This document shows, in pieces, positions 1 through 9,452 of a DNA stretch of 64,000 nt (position 1 is its first letter; the number at the start of each line of letters is the position of its first letter). This DNA is from Rhizobiales bacterium dw_265 (GTDB taxonomy: Bacteria; Pseudomonadota; Alphaproteobacteria; Micropepsales; Micropepsaceae). Both the position numbers and the translations under genes were made by a program. Where the stretch lies: NCBI GenBank assembly GCA_018449595.1, contig JAAVUU010000007.1, positions 62,001-126,000 on the forward strand, written 5' to 3'. The notes beneath the pieces were generated by a model. That model searched no databases. It worked only from the letters and a program-made list of their open reading frames with translations, and was not told the origin of the DNA.

Positions 1-823
1 ACACCTGCTCGGTGCCGCCGGGCGTGATCTGCAGGCCATAGGTGGCCGTGGCGTCCGAGGTCGTGGTGCCGCCCTGCTGGGTCTTCTGGAAGCGGGTGGA
101 AAAGCCCGCCGCCGACAGCTGGCTGTTGATATAGGTGACGATGTTGGTGAGATTCAGCGTGCCCTGCACCTGCGACAGGTCGATCGGCACATTGGTGGTG
201 ACGCCGCCCTTCTTGATGCCGATGGTGAAGCTGCTGGACGCCGACACGCCGGGCAGCGCATTGGCGAGATTGGAATTGGTCACCAGTTGCTTGGTGGCAT
301 AGGTGAAATTGCTGAAGGCGATATTGGCGGTCGAACTGGTCGTGTTCGACGGCTTGAGGGCCTGCAAGTTGAAATTGTTGAAGCTGGTGGAGGTCAGATA
401 CTGCTGCACCTGCGCCAGGCCGGACTGGAAGCGGGCGTTCAGGCCGGCCAGCTGGCCGCTGGTCTCTGTCGGGCTCTGCGCCATCTTGGCGAGATAGGCC
501 AGGGTGTTGACCGCGCTGTAGATCGAGAAGAGCTTCTGGTTGTCCTGCTCCATCTTGCTGTCGCTGGTGGCGCCCGCGGCCAGCGGCACATTCGATGTGT
601 CCAGGAAGTTGGTGGTGCCCAGAACCTTGGCGTCCTGCGCCGCATCGTTGGTGTTGGGCGTATTCCAGGGCGGATTGTCGGCGGCGGTCGCGCCCTGGGC
701 CTGGGTCGCGGCCAGTTGCTGCTGCTGCATGTTGGCGGCGGCGATGGCCGACGGGCTGGCCGCCAGCTGGGACTGGTACAGCCCCAACAGCACAGACGAG
801 TCGATTCCGCCGATACTGGACAT
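1..823 (-). CDS. FlaEY-like flagellar-locus protein, partial (C-terminus beyond window)
   Basis: Reading frame open from an ATG at 823 to the window edge (274 codons visible, no stop), so the C-terminus is missing. The protein starts MSSIGGIDSSVLLGLYQ and is rich in Ser, Thr, Ala, Asn and Gln with no membrane segment and no Cys in the visible part. An early PPWNTP segment and a later stretch FNNFNLQAL recall flagellar axial proteins and the large FlaEY regulator found beside flagellin genes in Caulobacter. It is divergent from the TPR gene at 925 and shares a promoter region holding a CtrA-like box. The family assignment rests on composition and context, not on a decisive motif; a hook-associated or other filament-related protein is the alternative. 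Confidence 0.5.
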   Translation of the reverse strand, partial: MSSIGGIDSSVLLGLYQSQLAASPSAIAAANMQQQQLAATQAQGATAADNPPWNTPNTNDAAQDAKVLGTTNFLDTSNVPLAAGATSDSKMEQDNQKLFSIYSAVNTLAYLAKMAQSPTETSGQLAGLNARFQSGLAQVQQYLTSTSFNNFNLQALKPSNTTSSTANIAFSNFTYATKQLVTNSNLANALPGVSASSSFTIGIKKGGVTTNVPIDLSQVQGTLNLTNIVTYINSQLSAAGFSTRFQKTQQGGTTTSDATATYGLQITPGGTEQV

Positions 824-924: not shown

Positions 925-2433
925 ATGAGCGCTGCCTATCACACCGGCCTGAAACTGTCGTCCCAGGGACGCCATGTGGAGGCAATCGAACAATTCGAGC
1001 AGGCGCTGGCGATCCGCCCGGACGACGCCCACGTCTTGTTTGCCCTGGGCAATACGGCCCACCAGCTGGGCCTGACGGACGCAGCCGAACAATTCTATCG
1101 CCGGGTATTGGGTTTGGAGCCGGAACGGCTGGAAGCCATCATCAACCTGTCCAACCTGCTGCGCGCCGACGGGCAGTTCGACGCGGCCATCGCGCTGATG
1201 AAGCCGGCCCAGGCGCGCGCCCCCAAAAGCGCGGAACTGCACCTGACCATGGGCTCGGCCTGGCGGGAAAAGGGCGACGACCAGACCGCCATCGCCCATT
1301 ACCAGGCGGCGCTGCTGGCGCGGCCGGACTATGCCCCGGCCCTGGTCAACCTGGCCGACATGCTGTGCGACGCCGGCAAACGCGACCAGGCCCGCATCCT
1401 GTACGACAAGGCCATCAAGGCCGATCCCAAGAATCCGCAGGCGCGGCTGAACCGGGCCATCCTGCATCTGCTGAACGGCGACTTGAAAGACGGCTGGCGC
1501 GACTATGCCGCGCGGGTGGACGTGCCCAACAAGGTCCCGGTCACGCAACTTCGTGCGGCGGCCTGGACCGGCGACAGCCTGAAAGGCAAGCGCCTGCTGG
1601 TGCGGGCCGAACAGGGCGTGGGCGACCAGATCCTGTTCGCCTCCATGATTCCCGACCTGGCCGAACGCGCCGCGCAAGAAGGCGGCAGCGTGATCCTGGA
1701 ATGCGAGCCCCGGCTGGTATCGATGTTCGCCCGCTCCTTCCCCGGCGTGACGGTGAAGCCGGCCAATATCAAAAATATCGGCGGGGTGCCGGTCGCCGAT
1801 TACGGCTGGTTGAAAAGTGTGGGCGGCGCCAATGCCGTCACCCTGATGGGCACCCTGCCGCGCCATCTGCGCAGCAACTGGGACAGCTTCCCCAAGCCGC
1901 ATACCTTCCTGACGCCGGATGCCGATGAAGTGGCGCGCTGGAAGACGGTCTTTGGCGGCAACGGCAATCGCGGCGAAACCAAGATCGGCATCTGCTGGCG
2001 CAGCGGCAAGGCCGGCGGCCATCGCGCCATCCAGTATGCGCCGCTGGCGGCCTGGGGCACTTTCCTGCGCGATACCGACGCCACCTTTGTCAGCGTGCAG
2101 TATGACGCCACGCCGGACGAGATCGCCTTCCTGGAAGAGATCAGCGGCAAGACCATCATCGTGCCGCAGGGCATCGACCAGAAGAATGAACTGGACCGCG
2201 CCTGCGCCCTGCTGGCGGCGCTGGATGTGGCGATCAGCGCGCCGACCGCCGTATCCTGGCTGTCGGCCGGCGTGGGCACGCGCACGCTGAAGGTATTGTA
2301 TGGCCTGAGCTGGACGGCGCTGGGCCGCGACTATGAACCCTTCGCGCCGTCCTGCCAGTGCGTCATGCCCAAGCAGTTCGGCGACTGGTCGAACGTGTTC
2401 GACCAGGTGAAGCGCTTTACAAGGCGTGCTTGA
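925..2433 (+). CDS. TPR protein with GT-B-like C-terminal domain (FlbA/FlmG-type flagellin modification)
   Basis: A 502-residue protein. Residues about 1-190 hold five or so tetratricopeptide repeats (typical motifs such as GNTAHQLGLTDAAEQFYRR and PDYAPALVNLADML). From about residue 220 the motif RAEQGVGDQILFASMIPDL opens a domain like the glycosyltransferase half of TPR-heptosyltransferase-like proteins. The same architecture occurs in Caulobacter FlbA and FlmG; FlmG is a flagellin-binding TPR glycosyltransferase. Its place next to sugar-nucleotide enzymes and two flagellins supports a role in attaching a nonulosonic-acid-type sugar to flagellin in the cytoplasm. Its 3' end overlaps the convergent sugar gene by 17 bases. 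The exact orthology (FlbA or FlmG) is not settled. Confidence 0.75.
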   Translation: MSAAYHTGLKLSSQGRHVEAIEQFEQALAIRPDDAHVLFALGNTAHQLGLTDAAEQFYRRVLGLEPERLEAIINLSNLLRADGQFDAAIALMKPAQARAPKSAELHLTMGSAWREKGDDQTAIAHYQAALLARPDYAPALVNLADMLCDAGKRDQARILYDKAIKADPKNPQARLNRAILHLLNGDLKDGWRDYAARVDVPNKVPVTQLRAAAWTGDSLKGKRLLVRAEQGVGDQILFASMIPDLAERAAQEGGSVILECEPRLVSMFARSFPGVTVKPANIKNIGGVPVADYGWLKSVGGANAVTLMGTLPRHLRSNWDSFPKPHTFLTPDADEVARWKTVFGGNGNRGETKIGICWRSGKAGGHRAIQYAPLAAWGTFLRDTDATFVSVQYDATPDEIAFLEEISGKTIIVPQGIDQKNELDRACALLAALDVAISAPTAVSWLSAGVGTRTLKVLYGLSWTALGRDYEPFAPSCQCVMPKQFGDWSNVFDQVKRFTRRA

Positions 2434-4258
2434 GAGGAAGGCGGGTGACCGCCAGCGCCGCTGACAGATCGGCGGCGATGCGGACGGCGCCCTGGCCGTC
2501 CATCAGCGACAGCGCCGCGTTGCGCATGTCGCGCCGCGCCAGCGGCTTGTTCAGCAGCCATTGCACGGTGCGGGCGATCTCGGCGTCGGACACCGTGGCG
2601 GCCTCGCCCAGCGAAATCCCCATCCCGGCATCGGCAAAGGCCGTTGCCGAGCGGGCATGTTCGGGGCTGATGCCCAGATAGATGGCGGGAATGCCCGACG
2701 CCGCCAGTTCATAGGCGGTGACGCCAAAGGCGCACAGCGCCACATCGGCGCCGGCATATTCGATGGACAGATCCTCCGCGCCTTCGACCGTCTCGTAATT
2801 CTTTTTCAGCGCCACCAGGCCGCGCGCGACGCTCGCCGCATCCTTCATGCCGGTACCCACGACAAAGCGGATGCGGAAGACCGAATCCAGCGGCGCCAGC
2901 GCCTTGGCCATGCGCAATGTCAGGCCATGGGGATCGCTGCCGCCCATCGCCACCAGCACGGTGGGGCGCCCCGCCGGACGATCGCCAGATCGGCCGGCCA
3001 TTGAACCAACAGCAGGCGCGCGGCTGGGCGATACGGCATTGGGATTGAGGCCCAGCAGCGCCCATTCCCACCCCAATCGCGGCAAAGTGTGGGAGCCGGA
3101 CCAGTCCAGCGCCACCGCGCCCGGCACCGGCGGATAATAGGCATAGTCGGCGGCCAGGCGGCGGTCATGGCCGTCGTCAATCACCGCCGTCACGGCGACG
3201 CCGCGCTTGAGTTTTTCCAGTTCGGCGCGGCCGGGACCGTCACGGCCATCCAGCAGCAGCAGGTCGGGGCTATTCGCATCGACAAGCGTTTGCAGATCGG
3301 ATGCGCCCTGCAGCATCGCCACCGCGAAACCGGCGCGGCGAATCGGCAGGGCCGCGTCCTCGCTGCCATTGAGGGCAAACAGCGCCCCGATGCCTTCGCG
3401 GTCGCGCAGGCTCCGCGCCAGGGCCACCATGCGCTTGACATGGCCATAGCCATATTTTCCGCCGCCATCGCAGCGGATCAGGGCGAGGCCACCGGCAGGT
3501 CTTATCGGTTTCTGCTTCACATGGGCGTTAATGCGGCTCAGTTCCGGCTCCCGCTCCAGCAGCAGCAGCAGGTCGGCCAGCACCGCCTCGCCGGCGCGGG
3601 CATCGATGCGGGCATGCACCGCCTCGACAAAGGCCAGGTCGTCGGGGGTGTCGATGGTGAGGCGGCCGCCCTTTTTCGCCAGCGGCGGCCAGGGCGCCGC
3701 GCGCACGATCTTCACAAAACCGGGGTGCAGCTTGAAATAGCCGGTGACGTGTTCCTTCGCCGCCGGATCATGGGCGGCATCCATCATCAGCCGGTCCAGG
3801 GCGCGGCGGCTGAACGGGTCCACGCCCTCATGGGCGCATTCCGCCCCTTCTTCCATCAGGACATAGTCGCCGTCCTGCTCGATCAGGGTGGCGACCAGGT
3901 GATCCACGAAACCCGCATCAATGAAGGGGGCGTCGGACGACACCCGCACGATGATGTCGGCATCCAGCTTTTCGGCGGCGCGGGCATAGCGCGCCAGCAC
4001 ATCGTCTTCCGGGCCGCGCACCACCATGACGCCTTCGGCATTGCACCATTCCACGATGGCGGCGTCGGCGGGATTGACCGTGGTGGCGACCGCGATGTCT
4101 TCCACCAGCCGGCAGGCCTTGAGGCGATGCACGATGTGCCACAGCAGCGGCTTGCCGGCGATGGGCTTGAGCACCTTGCCGGGCAGGCGCGTGGAACCCA
4201 TGCGCGCCTGGATCACGGCGACGACACGGATGTTCTCACGGGCATAGGCCTGGCGCAT
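2417..4258 (-). CDS. Fused SpsF-like cytidylyltransferase and SpsG/PseG-like glycosyl hydrolase
   Basis: A 613-residue two-domain protein. Residues 10-240 are an SpsF-type nucleotidyltransferase (COG1861 style) with IQARMGSTRLPGKVLKPI near the N-terminus and RGPEDDVLARY further on. Residues 260-600 match SpsG/PseG, the hydrolase or GT-B-fold enzyme that removes UDP from a trideoxy-sugar nucleotide; the conserved GYGHVKR carries the His expected in the active site, and VAMGGSDP marks the second Rossmann half. These normally separate proteins act in pseudaminic or legionaminic-type sugar synthesis. A low-complexity Arg/Pro/Gly linker of about 20 residues sits between the two Rossmann halves. 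The other pathway enzymes (PseB, PseC, PseH, PseI types) are not in this window. It likely feeds the neighbouring flagellin glycosylation. Confidence 0.8.
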   Translation of the reverse strand: MRQAYARENIRVVAVIQARMGSTRLPGKVLKPIAGKPLLWHIVHRLKACRLVEDIAVATTVNPADAAIVEWCNAEGVMVVRGPEDDVLARYARAAEKLDADIIVRVSSDAPFIDAGFVDHLVATLIEQDGDYVLMEEGAECAHEGVDPFSRRALDRLMMDAAHDPAAKEHVTGYFKLHPGFVKIVRAAPWPPLAKKGGRLTIDTPDDLAFVEAVHARIDARAGEAVLADLLLLLEREPELSRINAHVKQKPIRPAGGLALIRCDGGGKYGYGHVKRMVALARSLRDREGIGALFALNGSEDAALPIRRAGFAVAMLQGASDLQTLVDANSPDLLLLDGRDGPGRAELEKLKRGVAVTAVIDDGHDRRLAADYAYYPPVPGAVALDWSGSHTLPRLGWEWALLGLNPNAVSPSRAPAVGSMAGRSGDRPAGRPTVLVAMGGSDPHGLTLRMAKALAPLDSVFRIRFVVGTGMKDAASVARGLVALKKNYETVEGAEDLSIEYAGADVALCAFGVTAYELAASGIPAIYLGISPEHARSATAFADAGMGISLGEAATVSDAEIARTVQWLLNKPLARRDMRNAALSLMDGQGAVRIAADLSAALAVTRLPLKHAL

Positions 4259-4350
4259 TAACCAAATCTAAAGCCGGTATGGCTAAGAAGGCGTTAACGG
4301 CGGCCTCAAGCAGCAAAGCGATAGGCCATCGAAAAAGTGGAACGCATGCC

Positions 4351-5283
4351 ATGAGCCACGCCGCATCGCCTTCGGAATTCCTGCAGGACGGCAAGCATCA
4401 CGGGCCGCGCATCACCCAAGCAAAAGGCCATGACGTGATCGAGTGTTTCGATTGCGGTTTCAGGCATGTGCTGCCCCTGCCCGAACCCGCCGCGCTGGAG
4501 CGCGAATACCGCGAAAATTATTACGCCGTGGAAAAACCCGACTTCATCGCCTTTGCCGGCGAGGACCAGCCCTGGTTCGAACTGTCCCAGAATGACCGGC
4601 TGGAACTGTTTGAAAAGCTGCTGCCCGCGTCGCGCAGGCGTTTGCTGGACATAGGCTGCGGCCCCGGCTTTTTCCTGGCCCAGGCGATCAAGCGCGGCTG
4701 GGAGGCCCATGGCGTCGAGCCGTCGCGCCAGGCCGCCGCCCATGCCAGTTCGCTGGGCGCCGCCATCACCGAGGGCTTTTTCAACGCGCAAAGTGCCGCC
4801 GCGCTGGGCAAGTTCGACGCCGTCAACCTGACCAATGTGCTGGAGCATGTGCCCGACCCCATCCAGATCCTGACCCGGGCCATCGGCCTTCTGGACAAGG
4901 GCGGCGTGCTGTGCGCCTGCGTGCCCAACGATTTCTCGCCCTTACAATTTGCAGCCCGCGCTGTTGCACAAACAGGCGACTGGTGGCTGGCGCCGCCGCA
5001 TCACCTCAACTATTTCGATTTCGATGCGCTGGATGGGCTGCTGACGCGCCTGGGACTCAGCGTCACCGAGCGCACCACCAGCTTTCCCATGGAAGCCTTT
5101 GTGATGATGGGCGACAATTATATCGGCGACCCGGTGCTGGGGCGCGCCTGCCACAACAAGCGCAAGCGCTTCGATTTCGCCTTCGAGGCGGCGGGACTGA
5201 AAGAGACGCGGCGCGATTTCTACCGCGCTTTGGCCAAGCTGGGCATCGGGCGCGAAGCGGTGGTGATCGCGGTCAAACCGTGA
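4351..5283 (+). CDS. Class I SAM-dependent methyltransferase, flagellin locus
   Basis: 310 residues from the ATG at 4351 (MSHAASPSEF); an upstream in-frame ATG at 4279 would add 24 poorly conserved residues. Near the start, ECFDCGFRHV looks like half of a zinc-binding site, as in methyltransferases acting on nucleotide sugars or glycans. The SAM site is LLDIGCGPGFFLAQ (motif I), followed by NVLEHVPDP and GGVLCACVPND. The Methyltransf_23 type is common in surface-polysaccharide and flagellar glycan loci. The ATP-grasp gene follows after seven bases, so the two are co-transcribed. Substrate unknown; methylation of the flagellin sugar is the inference from context. Confidence 0.7.
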   Translation: MSHAASPSEFLQDGKHHGPRITQAKGHDVIECFDCGFRHVLPLPEPAALEREYRENYYAVEKPDFIAFAGEDQPWFELSQNDRLELFEKLLPASRRRLLDIGCGPGFFLAQAIKRGWEAHGVEPSRQAAAHASSLGAAITEGFFNAQSAAALGKFDAVNLTNVLEHVPDPIQILTRAIGLLDKGGVLCACVPNDFSPLQFAARAVAQTGDWWLAPPHHLNYFDFDALDGLLTRLGLSVTERTTSFPMEAFVMMGDNYIGDPVLGRACHNKRKRFDFAFEAAGLKETRRDFYRALAKLGIGREAVVIAVKP

Positions 5284-5290
5284 CCCGGCC

Positions 5291-6076
5291 ATGAGCAAGA
5301 CGCTCCTCATCATCTCGGGACAGCCGCAAGCCGCCGCCGTCGCCCAGCGCGCCAAGGCGATGGGCCATACCGTGGTGATTTCCGATGCCGATCCCCAGGC
5401 GCCGGGCTTTGCCTTCGCCGATTCCTGCCTGATCGCCGATGTCCAGGGCGCGCCGGAAACCGCCGCCGCGGCCGAACGATACAGCCGCAAGATCCGCCGC
5501 ATCGACGGCGTGGTGCTGATGGCCGATGCGGCGCTGACCGCCGCCACGGTGACACAGCGGCTGCGCCTGCCGGGCCTTGCCCTGCATGTCGCCGAACTGG
5601 CCGCCGACCGGCTGGCGGTGCGGCGCAGCTTCCAGTCCGCCGGCGTGGCGACGCCCTGGTTCGCGGAAATCTCCACCCCGCAGGAATTGCAGCGCGCCAT
5701 CATCGCGCGCGGCCGCGACCTGACGATCAAGCCGGTGGAAAATCGCGGCCCCGAAGGCGTGACCCGGCTGTCGGAGGTCGAGGATTTCGGCGCGGCCTTT
5801 CTTGCGGCCCGCGCCGCCTCGCCGGCCGAGCGGGTGATGGTGGAGCAAGGCAATGGCATGCCGGTCGCGGGCCTGATGCGGGCAGGAGAATGCCTGATGG
5901 AAGCCGATGATGGCACCCGCCTGGCGCTGGGCCGCGCCGCCTGCGCGCTGGGTATCAGCGATGGCCCGGTGACGGCCGAGGTGGTCGGCCCACAGATCGG
6001 CGATATGTCGCCGCGGCTGGCGCTGGATGGCGCGCTGCTGGACGCCGCCATCCGCCAGGCTTTGGGCGAGGGCTGA
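5291..6076 (+). CDS. Short ATP-grasp-like protein, probably lacking the C-terminal catalytic part
   Basis: 261 residues. The N-terminal about 110 residues form a pre-ATP-grasp Rossmann-like domain (LLIISGQPQAAAVAQRAKAMG and a Rossmann-like strand VVLMADAALTA). The ATP-grasp lid follows with LTIKPVENRGPEGVTRL and RVMVEQGNGMPVAG, which correspond to the ATP-binding Lys loop and the adenine-contacting Glu strand. ATP-grasp ligases of this type usually run to about 400 residues and end with metal-binding Asp/Glu/Asn motifs; here the protein stops soon after a degenerate segment PQIGDMSPRLALDG. It lies seven bases after the methyltransferase gene and is followed by a strong terminator. It may be a degenerate ligase, a binding subunit, or a specialised enzyme. 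Confidence 0.6.
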   Translation: MSKTLLIISGQPQAAAVAQRAKAMGHTVVISDADPQAPGFAFADSCLIADVQGAPETAAAAERYSRKIRRIDGVVLMADAALTAATVTQRLRLPGLALHVAELAADRLAVRRSFQSAGVATPWFAEISTPQELQRAIIARGRDLTIKPVENRGPEGVTRLSEVEDFGAAFLAARAASPAERVMVEQGNGMPVAGLMRAGECLMEADDGTRLALGRAACALGISDGPVTAEVVGPQIGDMSPRLALDGALLDAAIRQALGEG

Positions 6077-6225: not shown

Positions 6226-7059
6226 TTAACCTTGGAACAGAGACAGAATGGTCTGCGGCGCCTGATTGGCGATGGACAGAGCCTGAACGCCCAGCTGCTG
6301 CTTGACCTGCAGCGACTGCAACGAAGCGCTTTCCTGCGCCATGTTGGCGTCGACCAGGTTGCCGATGCCCTGGGTCAGGGTGTCGGACAGCTTCTGGGCG
6401 AAGGTCGCCTGGATCGAGAACTTCGCAGCGCCCGACGACAGCTTGGCAAGAGCCGAGTTGACGTTGGTCAGCGAGGCCTGGATCGTGGCGACCAGGGTCG
6501 AGGCCTTGGCCTGGGTCGAGATCGTGGCCGTGGACGTCAAGGTCACGATGGTCCCGGACAGGCTCATGTTCTGGGACGCCGTGGTGATGCGGCGGCTGCC
6601 GTCGGCGGACGCCAGGGCGGTGACCGAGTTGGTCGAGCCGTCCACCAGATTGAAGCCATTGAACACCGCGTTCTTCACGATCGTCGTGATCTGGTCACGC
6701 AGAGCGGTGAAGTTGGAGTTCAGCGCCTGACGGCTCGCGGTATCCAGCGAGGAGTCAGCCGCAGACAGGGCCTTGGTCTTGAGCTGAATGAGCAAATCCG
6801 AAATCGACTGGCCCGCCGACAGGGCGACGTCGATGGAGGAAGTGCCGTTGTTGATGGAGTTGATCACCGAGGTATAACCGGCGACCGCACCGCGCTGGTT
6901 CTGGGCGATCGCATAGACCGCGCCGTCATCGCGGGCATCGGCGACTTTCAGGCCGCTGTTGATGGCCGACTGGGTCTTGTCCAGCTGGCCCTGGGTGGCC
7001 GAAAGGTACTGCAGCGCGGTATTGGCCGCGTTGTTCGTGTTGACGCTAAAACCTGACAT
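6226..7059 (-). CDS. fliC: Flagellin (copy 1)
   Basis: 277 residues from the ATG at 7059, preceded by GGAGAGACC as ribosome binding site; a longer frame to 7119 is not supported. The protein has only the conserved D0/D1 helices: N-terminus MSGFSVNTNNAANTALQYL, an RGAVAGYTSVINSINNG segment, and the C-terminal heptad region LGVQALSIANQAPQTILSLF. The variable D2/D3 domain is missing, as in Caulobacter-type short flagellins. Ser/Thr-rich stretches in the middle are candidate O-glycosylation sites. It is about 85 percent identical by eye to copy 2 and has its own sigma-54-type promoter and terminator. Confidence 0.95.
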   Translation of the reverse strand: MSGFSVNTNNAANTALQYLSATQGQLDKTQSAINSGLKVADARDDGAVYAIAQNQRGAVAGYTSVINSINNGTSSIDVALSAGQSISDLLIQLKTKALSAADSSLDTASRQALNSNFTALRDQITTIVKNAVFNGFNLVDGSTNSVTALASADGSRRITTASQNMSLSGTIVTLTSTATISTQAKASTLVATIQASLTNVNSALAKLSSGAAKFSIQATFAQKLSDTLTQGIGNLVDANMAQESASLQSLQVKQQLGVQALSIANQAPQTILSLFQG

Positions 7060-7120
7060 ATTGGTCTCTCCGTTCTGGTATCGAGCATTGCTCTTGGGCG
7101 TTTTGCCCGCCTGACCCATT

Positions 7121-7469: not shown

Positions 7470-8306
7470 TTAGCCGCTCTGGAACAGCGACAGGATGGTC
7501 TGCGGCGCCTGGTTGGCGATCGACAGAGCCTGCACGCCCAGCTGCTGCTTGACCTGCAGCGACTGCAACGAGGCGCTTTCCTGGGCCATGTTGGCGTCGA
7601 CGAGATTGCCGATGCCCGCCGTCAAGGTATCCGACAGTTTCTGGGTGAAGCTCGCCTGGATCGAGAACTTCGCGGAACCGGACGACAGCTTGGCGAGGGC
7701 CGAGTTGACGTTGGTCAGCGAACTCTGGATCGTGTTGATCAAGGCCGAAGCCTTGGCCTGGGTGGAGATCGTGGACGTGGACGTGATCGTCACGATCGAA
7801 CCCGACAGGCTCATGTTCTGGGCCTGGGCCGTGATGCGGCGGGTGCCGTCCGCGGACGCCAGGGCCTGAACCTGATTGGTCGAACCGTCAACCAGATTGA
7901 AATTGTTGAAGACCGCGTTCTTGACGATCGTGGTAATCTGATCGCGCAGAGCCGTGAAGTTCGCGTTCAACGCCTGACGGCTCGCCGTATCGATGGACGG
8001 GTCAGCCGCAGCCAGCGCCTTGGTCTTCAACTGGATCAACAGGTCCGAAATCGACTGGCCCGCGGAAAGAGCGACGTCGATGGCGGACGAACCGTTATTC
8101 AGGCTGTTGATCACGGACTGATAACCGGCCACAGCGCCGCGCTGGTTCTGGGCGATGGCGTAGATGGCGCCATCATCCTTTGCATCCGCGACTTTGAGAC
8201 CGCTGTTAATCGCCGACTGGGTCGCATCGAGCTGACCCTGGGTCTGGCTGAGATACTGCAGCGCGACTGCCGCGCCGTTGTTGGTGTTGACGCTGAAACC
8301 TGACAT
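7470..8306 (-). CDS. fliC: Flagellin (copy 2)
   Basis: 278 residues, start ATG at 8306 with the ribosome site CGGAGAATGCC. Same D0/D1-only organisation as copy 1, from MSGFSVNTNNGAAVALQYL to IANQAPQTILSLFQSG. Differences between the copies are concentrated in the middle and are mainly conservative, such as Val/Ile exchanges. The secreted filament subunit is probably modified by the sugar enzymes upstream, with FlbT controlling its mRNA and FlaF aiding its secretion. A sigma-54-type promoter lies 72 bases upstream. Confidence 0.95.
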   Translation of the reverse strand: MSGFSVNTNNGAAVALQYLSQTQGQLDATQSAINSGLKVADAKDDGAIYAIAQNQRGAVAGYQSVINSLNNGSSAIDVALSAGQSISDLLIQLKTKALAAADPSIDTASRQALNANFTALRDQITTIVKNAVFNNFNLVDGSTNQVQALASADGTRRITAQAQNMSLSGSIVTITSTSTISTQAKASALINTIQSSLTNVNSALAKLSSGSAKFSIQASFTQKLSDTLTAGIGNLVDANMAQESASLQSLQVKQQLGVQALSIANQAPQTILSLFQSG

Positions 8307-8719: not shown

Positions 8720-9067
8720 TTAGCCGGCCTGCAAACCCTGCATGATATTGCGGTTGATCTCGATCAGCGGGTCCAGCGGCGCCTTTTCGCGCGTCACGCT
8801 GCGGGAGTATTTCGACACCCACAGGGAGAGCGAGATGATCTTGGCGCGCACGTCCTGGGTCAGGGTGTTGCGATCGTCCATGCAGTCGGCGGCCAGTGTC
8901 CGCCACAGCCGCCGGTTCCAGTCCAGCGCCTCGACCAGCGGGGTGCCGCTGGCGTTGGTTGCCTTGGCAGTCATCAGCGCGCCGGTAACCTGGCCGAACA
9001 GCCGGTATTCGGTGACGCGGGGGTCCTCGGTCGCGGCCTGCGCGGCCCTGTAGGCATTAAGGCTCAT
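8720..9067 (-). CDS. flaF: Flagellar biosynthesis regulator FlaF
   Basis: 115 residues, the usual family length. It starts MSLNAYRAAQAATEDPRVTE and contains the conserved ALDWNRRLWRTLAADC segment of FlaF. In Caulobacter and Brucella FlaF is needed for flagellin synthesis or secretion and acts together with FlbT; in Caulobacter it interacts with flagellin. The start codon lies inside the 3' end of flbT (11-base overlap), so translation is probably coupled. A terminator follows. Confidence 0.93.
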   Translation of the reverse strand: MSLNAYRAAQAATEDPRVTEYRLFGQVTGALMTAKATNASGTPLVEALDWNRRLWRTLAADCMDDRNTLTQDVRAKIISLSLWVSKYSRSVTREKAPLDPLIEINRNIMQGLQAG

Positions 9068-9452
9068 AGCTGAGACGCTCCTGTTCGAATTCGTAAAGCT
9101 TGCGGCAGGCGATCAGCGCCTTGTAATAAGAGCCCTGGGCGACATCGCGGCTGATGTCGACGCAAGCCCCCAGCACCGCCGGGGTCTTGAGCGCGCCCAT
9201 GAACTCGGTCATGCGCAGGGCAAATTCATTGTAGGGCTCTTCGCTGGTCTCGCCGTCCAGATACATCATCATGATGGCGAGATAGATGCGCCGCGCCGGG
9301 GTATTGGCGTTTTCCGGCTGCATGATGTCCTTTTCGCGCAGCACACAGGCCTTGTTCTGGATCACCAGGCTGGTGCGCTTGTCGCCATTGGCCAGAACCG
9401 CGCCATTGAGCACGAATTTCTCGCCCGGCTTTAACGACAATTTCAGCGGCAT
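9057..9452 (-). CDS. flbT: Flagellin mRNA regulator FlbT
   Basis: 131 residues beginning MPLKLSLKPGEKFVLNGAV, with VIQNKACVLREKDIM and ARRIYLAIMMMYLD typical of FlbT. The family binds the 5' leader of flagellin mRNA and represses translation (Caulobacter) or aids flagellin synthesis (Brucella) until the hook is complete. The ribosome site AAGGAAGGGG precedes the ATG. It forms an operon with flaF and faces away from the flagellin genes' own promoters, which gives the usual post-transcriptional checkpoint. Confidence 0.93.
   Translation of the reverse strand: MPLKLSLKPGEKFVLNGAVLANGDKRTSLVIQNKACVLREKDIMQPENANTPARRIYLAIMMMYLDGETSEEPYNEFALRMTEFMGALKTPAVLGACVDISRDVAQGSYYKALIACRKLYEFEQERLSYEP

Follow-up and report, generated by a model that had tools for sequence, protein, structure and literature searches.

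Cytidylyltransferases of the SpsF type and UDP-sugar hydrolases of the SpsG/PseG type are normally separate proteins that act at different points of nonulosonate synthesis. What, then, is the function of a gene that encodes both of them in one chain? The gene in question lies at positions 2417–4258, on the minus strand, of a 64,000-nucleotide stretch of DNA from the alphaproteobacterium Rhizobiales bacterium dw_265 (contig JAAVUU010000007.1, positions 62,001 to 126,000; G000:C19:62001-126000 under our handles), the whole of which is referred to below as the window. The original prediction, made from the letters of the stretch, described a SpsF–SpsG/PseG fusion and took it to imply channelling or co-localization in one shared pathway. 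We estimate a probability of roughly 80% that the fusion, judged by its sequence, works as a bifunctional enzyme in a nonulosonate pathway similar to that of pseudaminic acid, the two putative reactions being those of its families, and flagellin glycosylation is the most likely role of such an enzyme. Both halves are known enzymes, which makes the fusion by itself a modest finding; it is useful because it gives candidates for PseG and PseF in one frame and co-occurs with a NeuB lacking the SAF domain and with an ATP-grasp ligase; it is a genetic handle on the nonulosonate pathway marked by these two proteins.

One frame, two domains

The frame at 2417–4258 runs uninterrupted from ATG to stop and encodes 613 residues, with matches to Pfam and NCBIfam families and with homologous full-length chains elsewhere. 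The predicted presence of two domains in a single 613-residue chain is thereby borne out, and the minus strand is added here. The SpsF-type (CTP_transf_3) domain covers residues ~10–245 (3524–4231, minus strand): Pfam CTP_transf_3 matches residues 13–214 with 102.5 bits against a gathering cut-off of 22.6, and the nearest solved structure by sequence is Leptospira 6oew (E 7.3e-22). It is followed by a linker of residues ~246–257 (3488–3523, minus strand), the length of which differs among relatives, and by a PseG-type domain with a GT-B fold at residues ~258–602 (2453–3487, minus strand). The NCBIfam PseG model TIGR03590 matches residues 260–529 (E 7.4e-24), and a profile of eight PseG-type domains has Campylobacter jejuni PseG (3hbm, E 8.6e-23) as its best solved match. 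A scan of 4150–4400 for promoters and terminators found none.

The motifs were compared among 19 fusions. In the SpsF half, QARMGSTRLPGK contains seven invariant residues (Q17, A18, R19, M20, R24, G27 and K28); of the others, four differ in a single row apiece and T23 in six rows. The Asp residues D109, D203 and D207 are likewise invariant, and QARMGSTRLPGK corresponds to the conserved CTP-binding motif. The PseG half keeps the motif GxGHxxR, with G270, G272, H273 and R276 invariant. His273 (codon 3440–3442, minus strand, within GYGHVKR) aligns with His17 of C. jejuni PseG 3hbm, which is presumably catalytic. The motifs had been predicted to be intact, and they are, with QARMGSTRLPGK conserved for the most part.

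An AlphaFold model of the fusion (mean predicted local distance difference test score, pLDDT, 85.6; predicted template modelling score, pTM, 0.60) reveals two confident domains and a low-confidence linker at residues 247–255 (pLDDT <50). The modelled N-terminal domain matches 6oew with a Z score of 26.7 and a root-mean-square deviation (rmsd) of 2.6 over 236 residues. A two-domain model with a pTM of 0.60 says nothing for a shared tunnel, and channelling or co-localization stays a mere suggestion.

Authenticity and distribution of the fusion

A frameshift or an assembly join might have created the chain, and one copy, that of genome G027 (L012/L111), does have an internal stop, which lies inside the PseG half. 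Nothing else was found in favour of an artefact, which we consider a practically negligible explanation. In a survey of 385 genomes of the class, the window's genome (G000) included, an intact two-domain chain without stops was found in at least 13. The window's kind of fusion occurs in at least nine of them (G000, G140, G004, G238, G137, G123, G116, G368 and G014), and a second kind, described below, in at least four (G340, G165, G263 and G037); the broken G027 copy and a fragment at a contig end in G227 are excluded from these counts. Loci L035–L051, from other assemblies, hold further copies, part of which are truncated where the contig stops; among these loci, L037 duplicates the contig of L006 and L043 that of L007. 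The codon-position G+C pattern is much alike through both halves and the linker, and comparison with the 81%-identical relative L006 points to purifying selection, the non-synonymous and synonymous rates (dN/dS) being 0.081/0.697 for the SpsF half and 0.201/0.729 for the PseG half. Since the codon-position pattern is steady and both halves are under selection, a frameshift and an assembly join can both be dismissed for this chain, and the same fused chain recurs in other assemblies. A chance open frame was likewise set aside. A set of alphaproteobacteria shares this conserved architecture; any uniqueness of the fusion, which the original prediction had left to depend on its relatives, does not stand, whereas a shared architecture does. 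As a side observation, the G027 genome contains two NeuB-family matches, and the ATP-grasp ligase discussed below has no match in it.

A further survey covered 398 genomes of the phylum with profile A2. Nearly the whole profile was matched in G000 and G037 only, and G658 and G680 match both halves partly; among 27 loci (L072–L098), both domains share one frame only in L083 (G680). A fusion outside the class was not seen in this sample (398 genomes, loci drawn), although the search could have overlooked a more divergent one. The divergent fusions of G680 (L083/L110) and G658 (L109) lie in clusters of the same type, close to flagellin genes in rows, and their PseG half is weak (42.7 bits in L083). 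A candidate with a match spanning residues 10–599, L058, turned out to have the two domains in separate frames and was rejected. In a plasmid search, a single record (H1) had one place covering 80% or more of the query, and this place consists of two separate genes. L047, a contig assigned to an Acidobacteria metagenome-assembled genome, has a 77% identical fusion in the same gene neighbourhood and is perhaps a mis-binned alphaproteobacterial contig. A SpsF–PseG fusion is not described in the literature searched, which consisted of titles and abstract openings, with most subscription journals outside it.

Two kinds of fusion

The fusions of the second kind (L015, L016, L017 and L021) resemble that of the window in that SpsF precedes PseG in one chain and a NeuB-family gene adjoins, as it does in all four loci. 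They differ in being SpsF–PseG–acetyltransferase chains of 755–786 residues with a third, GNAT domain, in having a PseG part over the TIGR03590 cut-off (197–210 bits), in the type of their NeuB, and in that the ligase was not found with them. The one NeuB of the second kind that was scanned, from L099, is a canonical PseI with a SAF domain (481.3 bits vs. a cut-off of 340.25), and the NeuB proteins of the other three loci are 88–93% identical to it.

In the trees without L083, which is divergent, the window's kind is monophyletic in both halves (support 100/99 and 99/96). Including L083 breaks up this clade in the PseG tree, and in the tree without it two long branches meet. The trees exclude same-contig duplicates, truncated rows at contig ends, KdsB, the broken L012 and any row that fell short of the coverage or bit limits. 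A single origin for all fusions was rejected for the PseG half (approximately unbiased test, p-AU 5.7e-54) and not rejected for the SpsF half (p-AU 0.119). As the two kinds together are rejected for the PseG half, the PseG part at least was therefore joined twice, from different lineages. Two PseG lineages joined to SpsF, each beside NeuB, make a physical PseG–NeuB–SpsF assembly a direct idea, in which the fused chain might be in contact with NeuB.

That the two enzymes normally occur apart agrees with the 44 rows or loci of unfused SpsF collected, in 10 of which a separate PseG frame lies within the short flanks; in some of them, for example L054, L055 and L097, it is directly downstream of SpsF. 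A SpsF gene with PseG directly downstream is the likely starting point for the fusion. A comparable order is known from Caulobacter, where, according to the accessible part of the report (PMC7591256), the cytidylyltransferase gene flmC is immediately upstream of flmD, responsible for the PseG step, and both act with NeuB. The gene order flmC–flmD is the domain order of the window's fusion. Caulobacter also needs NeuB and has a glycosyltransferase with tetratricopeptide repeats (TPR), and the window's genome has candidate counterparts for both. Caulobacter differs in that FlmC and FlmD are separate proteins of a full pseudaminic acid pathway with FlmH, and the two systems are likened here by role and order (same partial source).

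The rest of the pathway

Of the 24 loci of relatives in which the region upstream of the fusion is visible, 16 have NeuB immediately before it on the same strand; counted by distinct contigs, these are 14 of 22. In 11 of the 12 distinct junctions measured, with start codons chosen by alignment, the two genes share 1–19 nucleotides; in L040 there is a gap of 93 nucleotides. Five loci (L104, L105, L106, L107 and L110) hold PseC, PseB, NeuB and the fusion together, and L134 (G227) has this arrangement up to the contig end. The order in L106 and L107 is PseC–PseB–GH57–ATP-grasp–short-chain dehydrogenase/reductase (SDR)–transketolase C–transketolase N–methyltransferase–sulfotransferase–methyltransferase, then a divergent NeuB–fusion pair, after which L106 has a convergent gene for a TPR-glycosyltransferase. 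Other loci hold most of this set, with IlvB in place of the transketolase in L104 and L105 and a different arrangement in L104, L109 and L110. In L039, a full-length ATP-grasp is present, no short NeuB lies beside the fusion, and a longer NeuB-family gene is located ~1.8 kb beyond it.

In the window's own genome, contig C15 carries PseB (511.1 bits vs. a cut-off of 407.75) and PseC (425.6 vs. 423.5 bits), next to which lies the only NeuB-family match of the genome, a protein of 287 residues. The same contig holds a full-length ATP-grasp protein with the LAL_C2 domain (L059:11097-12305), an IlvB-like thiamine enzyme of 584 residues and an SDR reductase. No PseG-family match other than the fusion turned up in the genome. 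The PF02348 matches are KdsB, the fusion and one match below the cut-off, so that only KdsB and the fusion are over it. Other pathway genes had been predicted to lie outside the window, and this holds for NeuB and PseB/PseC, which are the ones that the genome searches (rather than a gene-by-gene search of the window) place on C15. Beside PseB and PseC there is also a GH57-like protein of ~637 residues (L059:3942-5852), kept in many of these clusters. C15 encodes in addition a second TPR protein, of FlmG-like size (583 residues, L059:6728-8479), and adjoining it an aldo/keto reductase that scores 243.9 against the KidO cut-off of 244.

Among the 385 class genomes, NeuB of this type (E ≤ 1e-60) was found in 10 and the ATP-grasp protein (E ≤ 1e-60) in 11. 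The 10 NeuB genomes, which span seven family codes, comprise the nine that carry the window's kind of fusion and, as the tenth, G227, where the fusion is cut by the contig end. The ATP-grasp protein is present in all 10, and G320 has the ATP-grasp protein only. A Fisher value for this co-occurrence is only a guide, because the genomes are not independent draws and the threshold was chosen by the analyst. Among 16 selected genomes, the ATP-grasp protein (E ≤ 1e-20) accompanies the window's kind of fusion in 11/11, the second kind in 0/4, and is absent in G027; the 11 include the divergent G658 and G680 with their weak PseG half. The position of NeuB upstream of the fusion, the usual overlap, the presence of PseB and PseC in five loci and the co-occurrence across genomes are all in line with the one shared pathway that the original prediction proposed.

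Weighing the bifunctional reading

A number of results speak against a bifunctional enzyme of such a pathway. The PseG half reaches 84.8 bits in TIGR03590, below the curated equivalog cut-off of 153.55, and the SpsF half is far from the PseF model TIGR03584 (23.3 vs. a cut-off of 205.7 bits). By fold, the modelled C-terminal domain is closer to MurG (3s2u; Z 29.0, rmsd 2.6, 311 residues) than to PseG (3hbn; Z 24.7, rmsd 3.0, 271 residues). The NeuB on C15 is below the NeuB and PseI cut-offs (PseI 155.7 vs. 340.25 bits), and a domain scan gave no SAF match in it. NeuB, PseB and PseC are on another contig than the fusion in this genome, and no NeuB lies just upstream in 8 of the 24 loci (the broken L012, L013, L035, L038, L039, L041, L048 and L049); for these reasons the operon argument rests on other relatives. 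PseH over its cut-off (93.1 bits) was not found in the genome, which has four weak GNAT matches; since the PseH model is over the cut-off in only 1 of 14 control genomes, this negative is not proof of absence. Finally, of the five genomes from the same genus in the class sample, G239 and G320 are without the fusion among the matches listed.

The structural matches raise the question of whether the C-terminal half is instead a glycosyltransferase, in which case the chain would make a CMP-sugar and its GT-B domain would transfer another sugar. The best fold matches are indeed MurG and other GT-B transferases, the GT-B fold being common to many transferases, the domain is longer than C. jejuni PseG, and sequence alone finds MurG and not PseG: the window's PseG half searched by itself against the PDB gives MurG only (E 0.0065), that of L021 gives no match at 0.01, and 3hbm is reached from the PseG halves by profiles only, not by single sequences. 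On the other side, the best profile match is PseG, GxGHxxR is kept, and the genome, which has PseB, PseC and NeuB, encodes no other PseG-family protein. The glycosyltransferase explanation appears quite improbable to us. C. jejuni PseG (3hbm, 3hbn) shares its motif and fold with the C-terminal half but is a single-domain protein of 282 residues, whereas the window's domain is under the PseG family cut-off. Because of this cut-off and of the higher rank of MurG by fold, we infer, rather than read directly, a hydrolase activity of the C-terminal half.

A possible route to the sugar

If the fusion is a bifunctional nonulosonate enzyme, its PseG-type half would remove UDP from the UDP-linked diamino-dideoxy sugar made by PseB and PseC, the separate short NeuB would condense the freed sugar with phosphoenolpyruvate, and the SpsF-type half would activate the resulting nine-carbon acid with CMP. 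One chain would, in this order of reactions, hold the steps before and after NeuB. The CMP-sugar would probably be passed to the neighbouring TPR-glycosyltransferase and put on the flagellins encoded next door.

As far as gene content can tell, the cluster is unusual: it combines a SAF-less NeuB, an amino-acid-ligase-like ATP-grasp protein, a thiamine enzyme, a reductase and methyltransferases with no recognisable PseH. We tentatively consider a nonulosonate route that does without PseH, in which the ATP-grasp ligase, with its amino-acid-ligase C-domain, would acylate the free amine instead of an acetyltransferase. The acylated amine may belong to the PseC product or else to the finished sugar, and the acid could come from the thiamine enzyme, the reductase and the methyltransferases. 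Adaptation of the PseG half and of the SAF-less NeuB to such a bulky substrate would explain why both are below the canonical family cut-offs, and SpsF would have been fused to two PseG lineages, once per route. The co-occurrence and the contrast between the two kinds of fusion support such a route. The fact that PseH can diverge beyond recognition, as FlmH, weighs against it.

Plain Pse5Ac7Ac synthesis is also conceivable, though short of probable. An unrelated GNAT would then carry out the PseH step, NeuB would merely be divergent, and the extra genes would decorate the finished sugar. PseB and PseC over their cut-offs fit this explanation, as do the four weak GNAT matches to PseH, given a model that may miss divergent members. 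In the accessible text on Caulobacter (PMC7591256), FlmH and PseH share only 26% identity, and a strain that had lost FlmH together with two paralogs did not phenocopy the loss of NeuB, FlmA, FlmB or FlmG; a 274-Da unit of Shewanella flagellin was interpreted as pseudaminic acid with one acetyl (PMC3765264, likewise available in part). PseH over the cut-off was found, however, in 0/11 genomes with the window's kind of fusion, compared to 1/4 of the second kind and 0/1 for G027. The NeuB proteins of the window's genome and of L036, the two of this kind scanned, are without SAF, whereas the second kind has an acetyltransferase domain, the canonical SAF-bearing PseI of L099 and the ligase in none of four genomes, and the ligase goes with the short NeuB in 10/10. 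The original prediction had suggested locating PseB, PseC, PseH and PseI elsewhere in the genome; the first two were found, while PseH gave weak matches only and the candidate for PseI is the SAF-less NeuB below the PseI cut-off.

The set resembles sfmABCDE of Shewanella oneidensis, which the accessible part of PMC3765264 describes as a NeuB-like protein of 290 residues, a thiamine enzyme of 581 residues, a reductase, a methyltransferase and an ATP-grasp protein, in a genome that also has PseB and PseC homologs. In the window's genome, the corresponding set consists of NeuB (287 residues), the IlvB-like enzyme (584 residues), the SDR and the ATP-grasp protein, all on C15, and a methyltransferase in the window; the likeness is one of gene content and description only. 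The same part of that report gives no clear PseH, PseG, PseI or PseF and does not mention a fusion. For such an sfm-type pathway, the fusion offers candidates for PseG and PseF, no clear orthologs of which have been reported there.

A similar set is found on plasmid pDCAR1 of Solidesulfovibrio carbinolicus (L068), where, as in the fusion clusters, a short NeuB, methyltransferases, FabG, a split transketolase and an ATP-grasp protein occur together. Its PseG is 36% identical to that of the window. The plasmid differs in that PseF, over its cut-off, and PseG are separate genes. The PseG-family protein at L068:5953-7032 is annotated as an acylneuraminate cytidylyltransferase, and no cytidylyltransferase family was matched in it.

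Flagellin as the probable acceptor

The window holds a reduced cluster made up of a TPR-glycosyltransferase, the fusion, a methyltransferase, a shortened ATP-grasp protein and two flagellins. Convergent with the fusion, at 925–2433 on the plus strand, lies the gene for a FlmG-like protein of 502 residues with TPR and a glycosyltransferase-like part. It matches TPR_2 with 76.6 bits (cut-off 27) as well as other TPR families, and no glycosyltransferase family was matched in it by sequence at 0.001. In its model, TPR occupy residues 1–200, and the C-terminal GT-B part matches the GT9 structure 3tov (Z 18.3, rmsd 3.4, 270 residues). The sole PDB matches of the C-terminal part (5le2–5leb) have design-style chain names and were taken for chance. 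The gene stands beside the fusion in many relatives. Its predicted fold fits a FlmG-like candidate flagellin glycosyltransferase, which may act on the flagellins nearby; FlmG itself is the flagellin glycosyltransferase of Caulobacter, composed of TPR and a glycosyltransferase part, in the accessible text of PMC7591256.

The two flagellin genes are located at 6226–7119 (297 residues) and 7470–8306 (278 residues), both on the minus strand and both with Flagellin_N and Flagellin_C. Flagellins together with the TPR-glycosyltransferase are found near the fusion in the window, L038, L041, L109 and L110, and flagellin matches near the cluster also in L104, L107 and L134. These neighbourhoods argue against a sugar destined mainly for surface polysaccharide, which we regard as unlikely. 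That alternative is brought to mind by the sulfotransferase and the GH57-like protein in the clusters, and by SpsF and SpsG of Bacillus subtilis, which act in the spore crust (PMC7439481, seen in part). The B. subtilis enzymes are of the same kinds by name, and both are required to make or deliver the nonulosonate, but in the portion of the report available to us they are encoded by separate genes, and legionaminic acid is placed on spores rather than flagellin. A sulfotransferase-like gene of the full clusters (L036:5310-6128) may point to a sulfated glycan; no sulfotransferase match was found in the first 16 kb of the window.

On the other side of the fusion, and divergent from it, a gene for an S-adenosylmethionine (SAM)-dependent methyltransferase is located at 4279–5283 on the plus strand (Methyltransf_23, 82.8 bits); it belongs to the cluster in many relatives. 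It is followed at 5291–6076, plus strand, by the shortened ATP-grasp gene. The 261-residue product is without the LAL_C2 domain and an inner segment, compared to ~407 residues in relatives, and by its sequence looks like a decaying copy or remnant of the ligase. It was set aside as a working ligase, being shortened, with the full copy on C15. L038 and L041 resemble the window in having a shortened ATP-grasp protein and are without a methyltransferase match.

Past the flagellins, two small genes at 8720–9452 on the minus strand presumably resemble FlaF and FlbT. Beyond the TPR-glycosyltransferase, at window positions 1–823 on the minus strand and at L062:9942-12824, there is a gene for a large protein of ~960 residues, and a similar gene occurs in several relatives.

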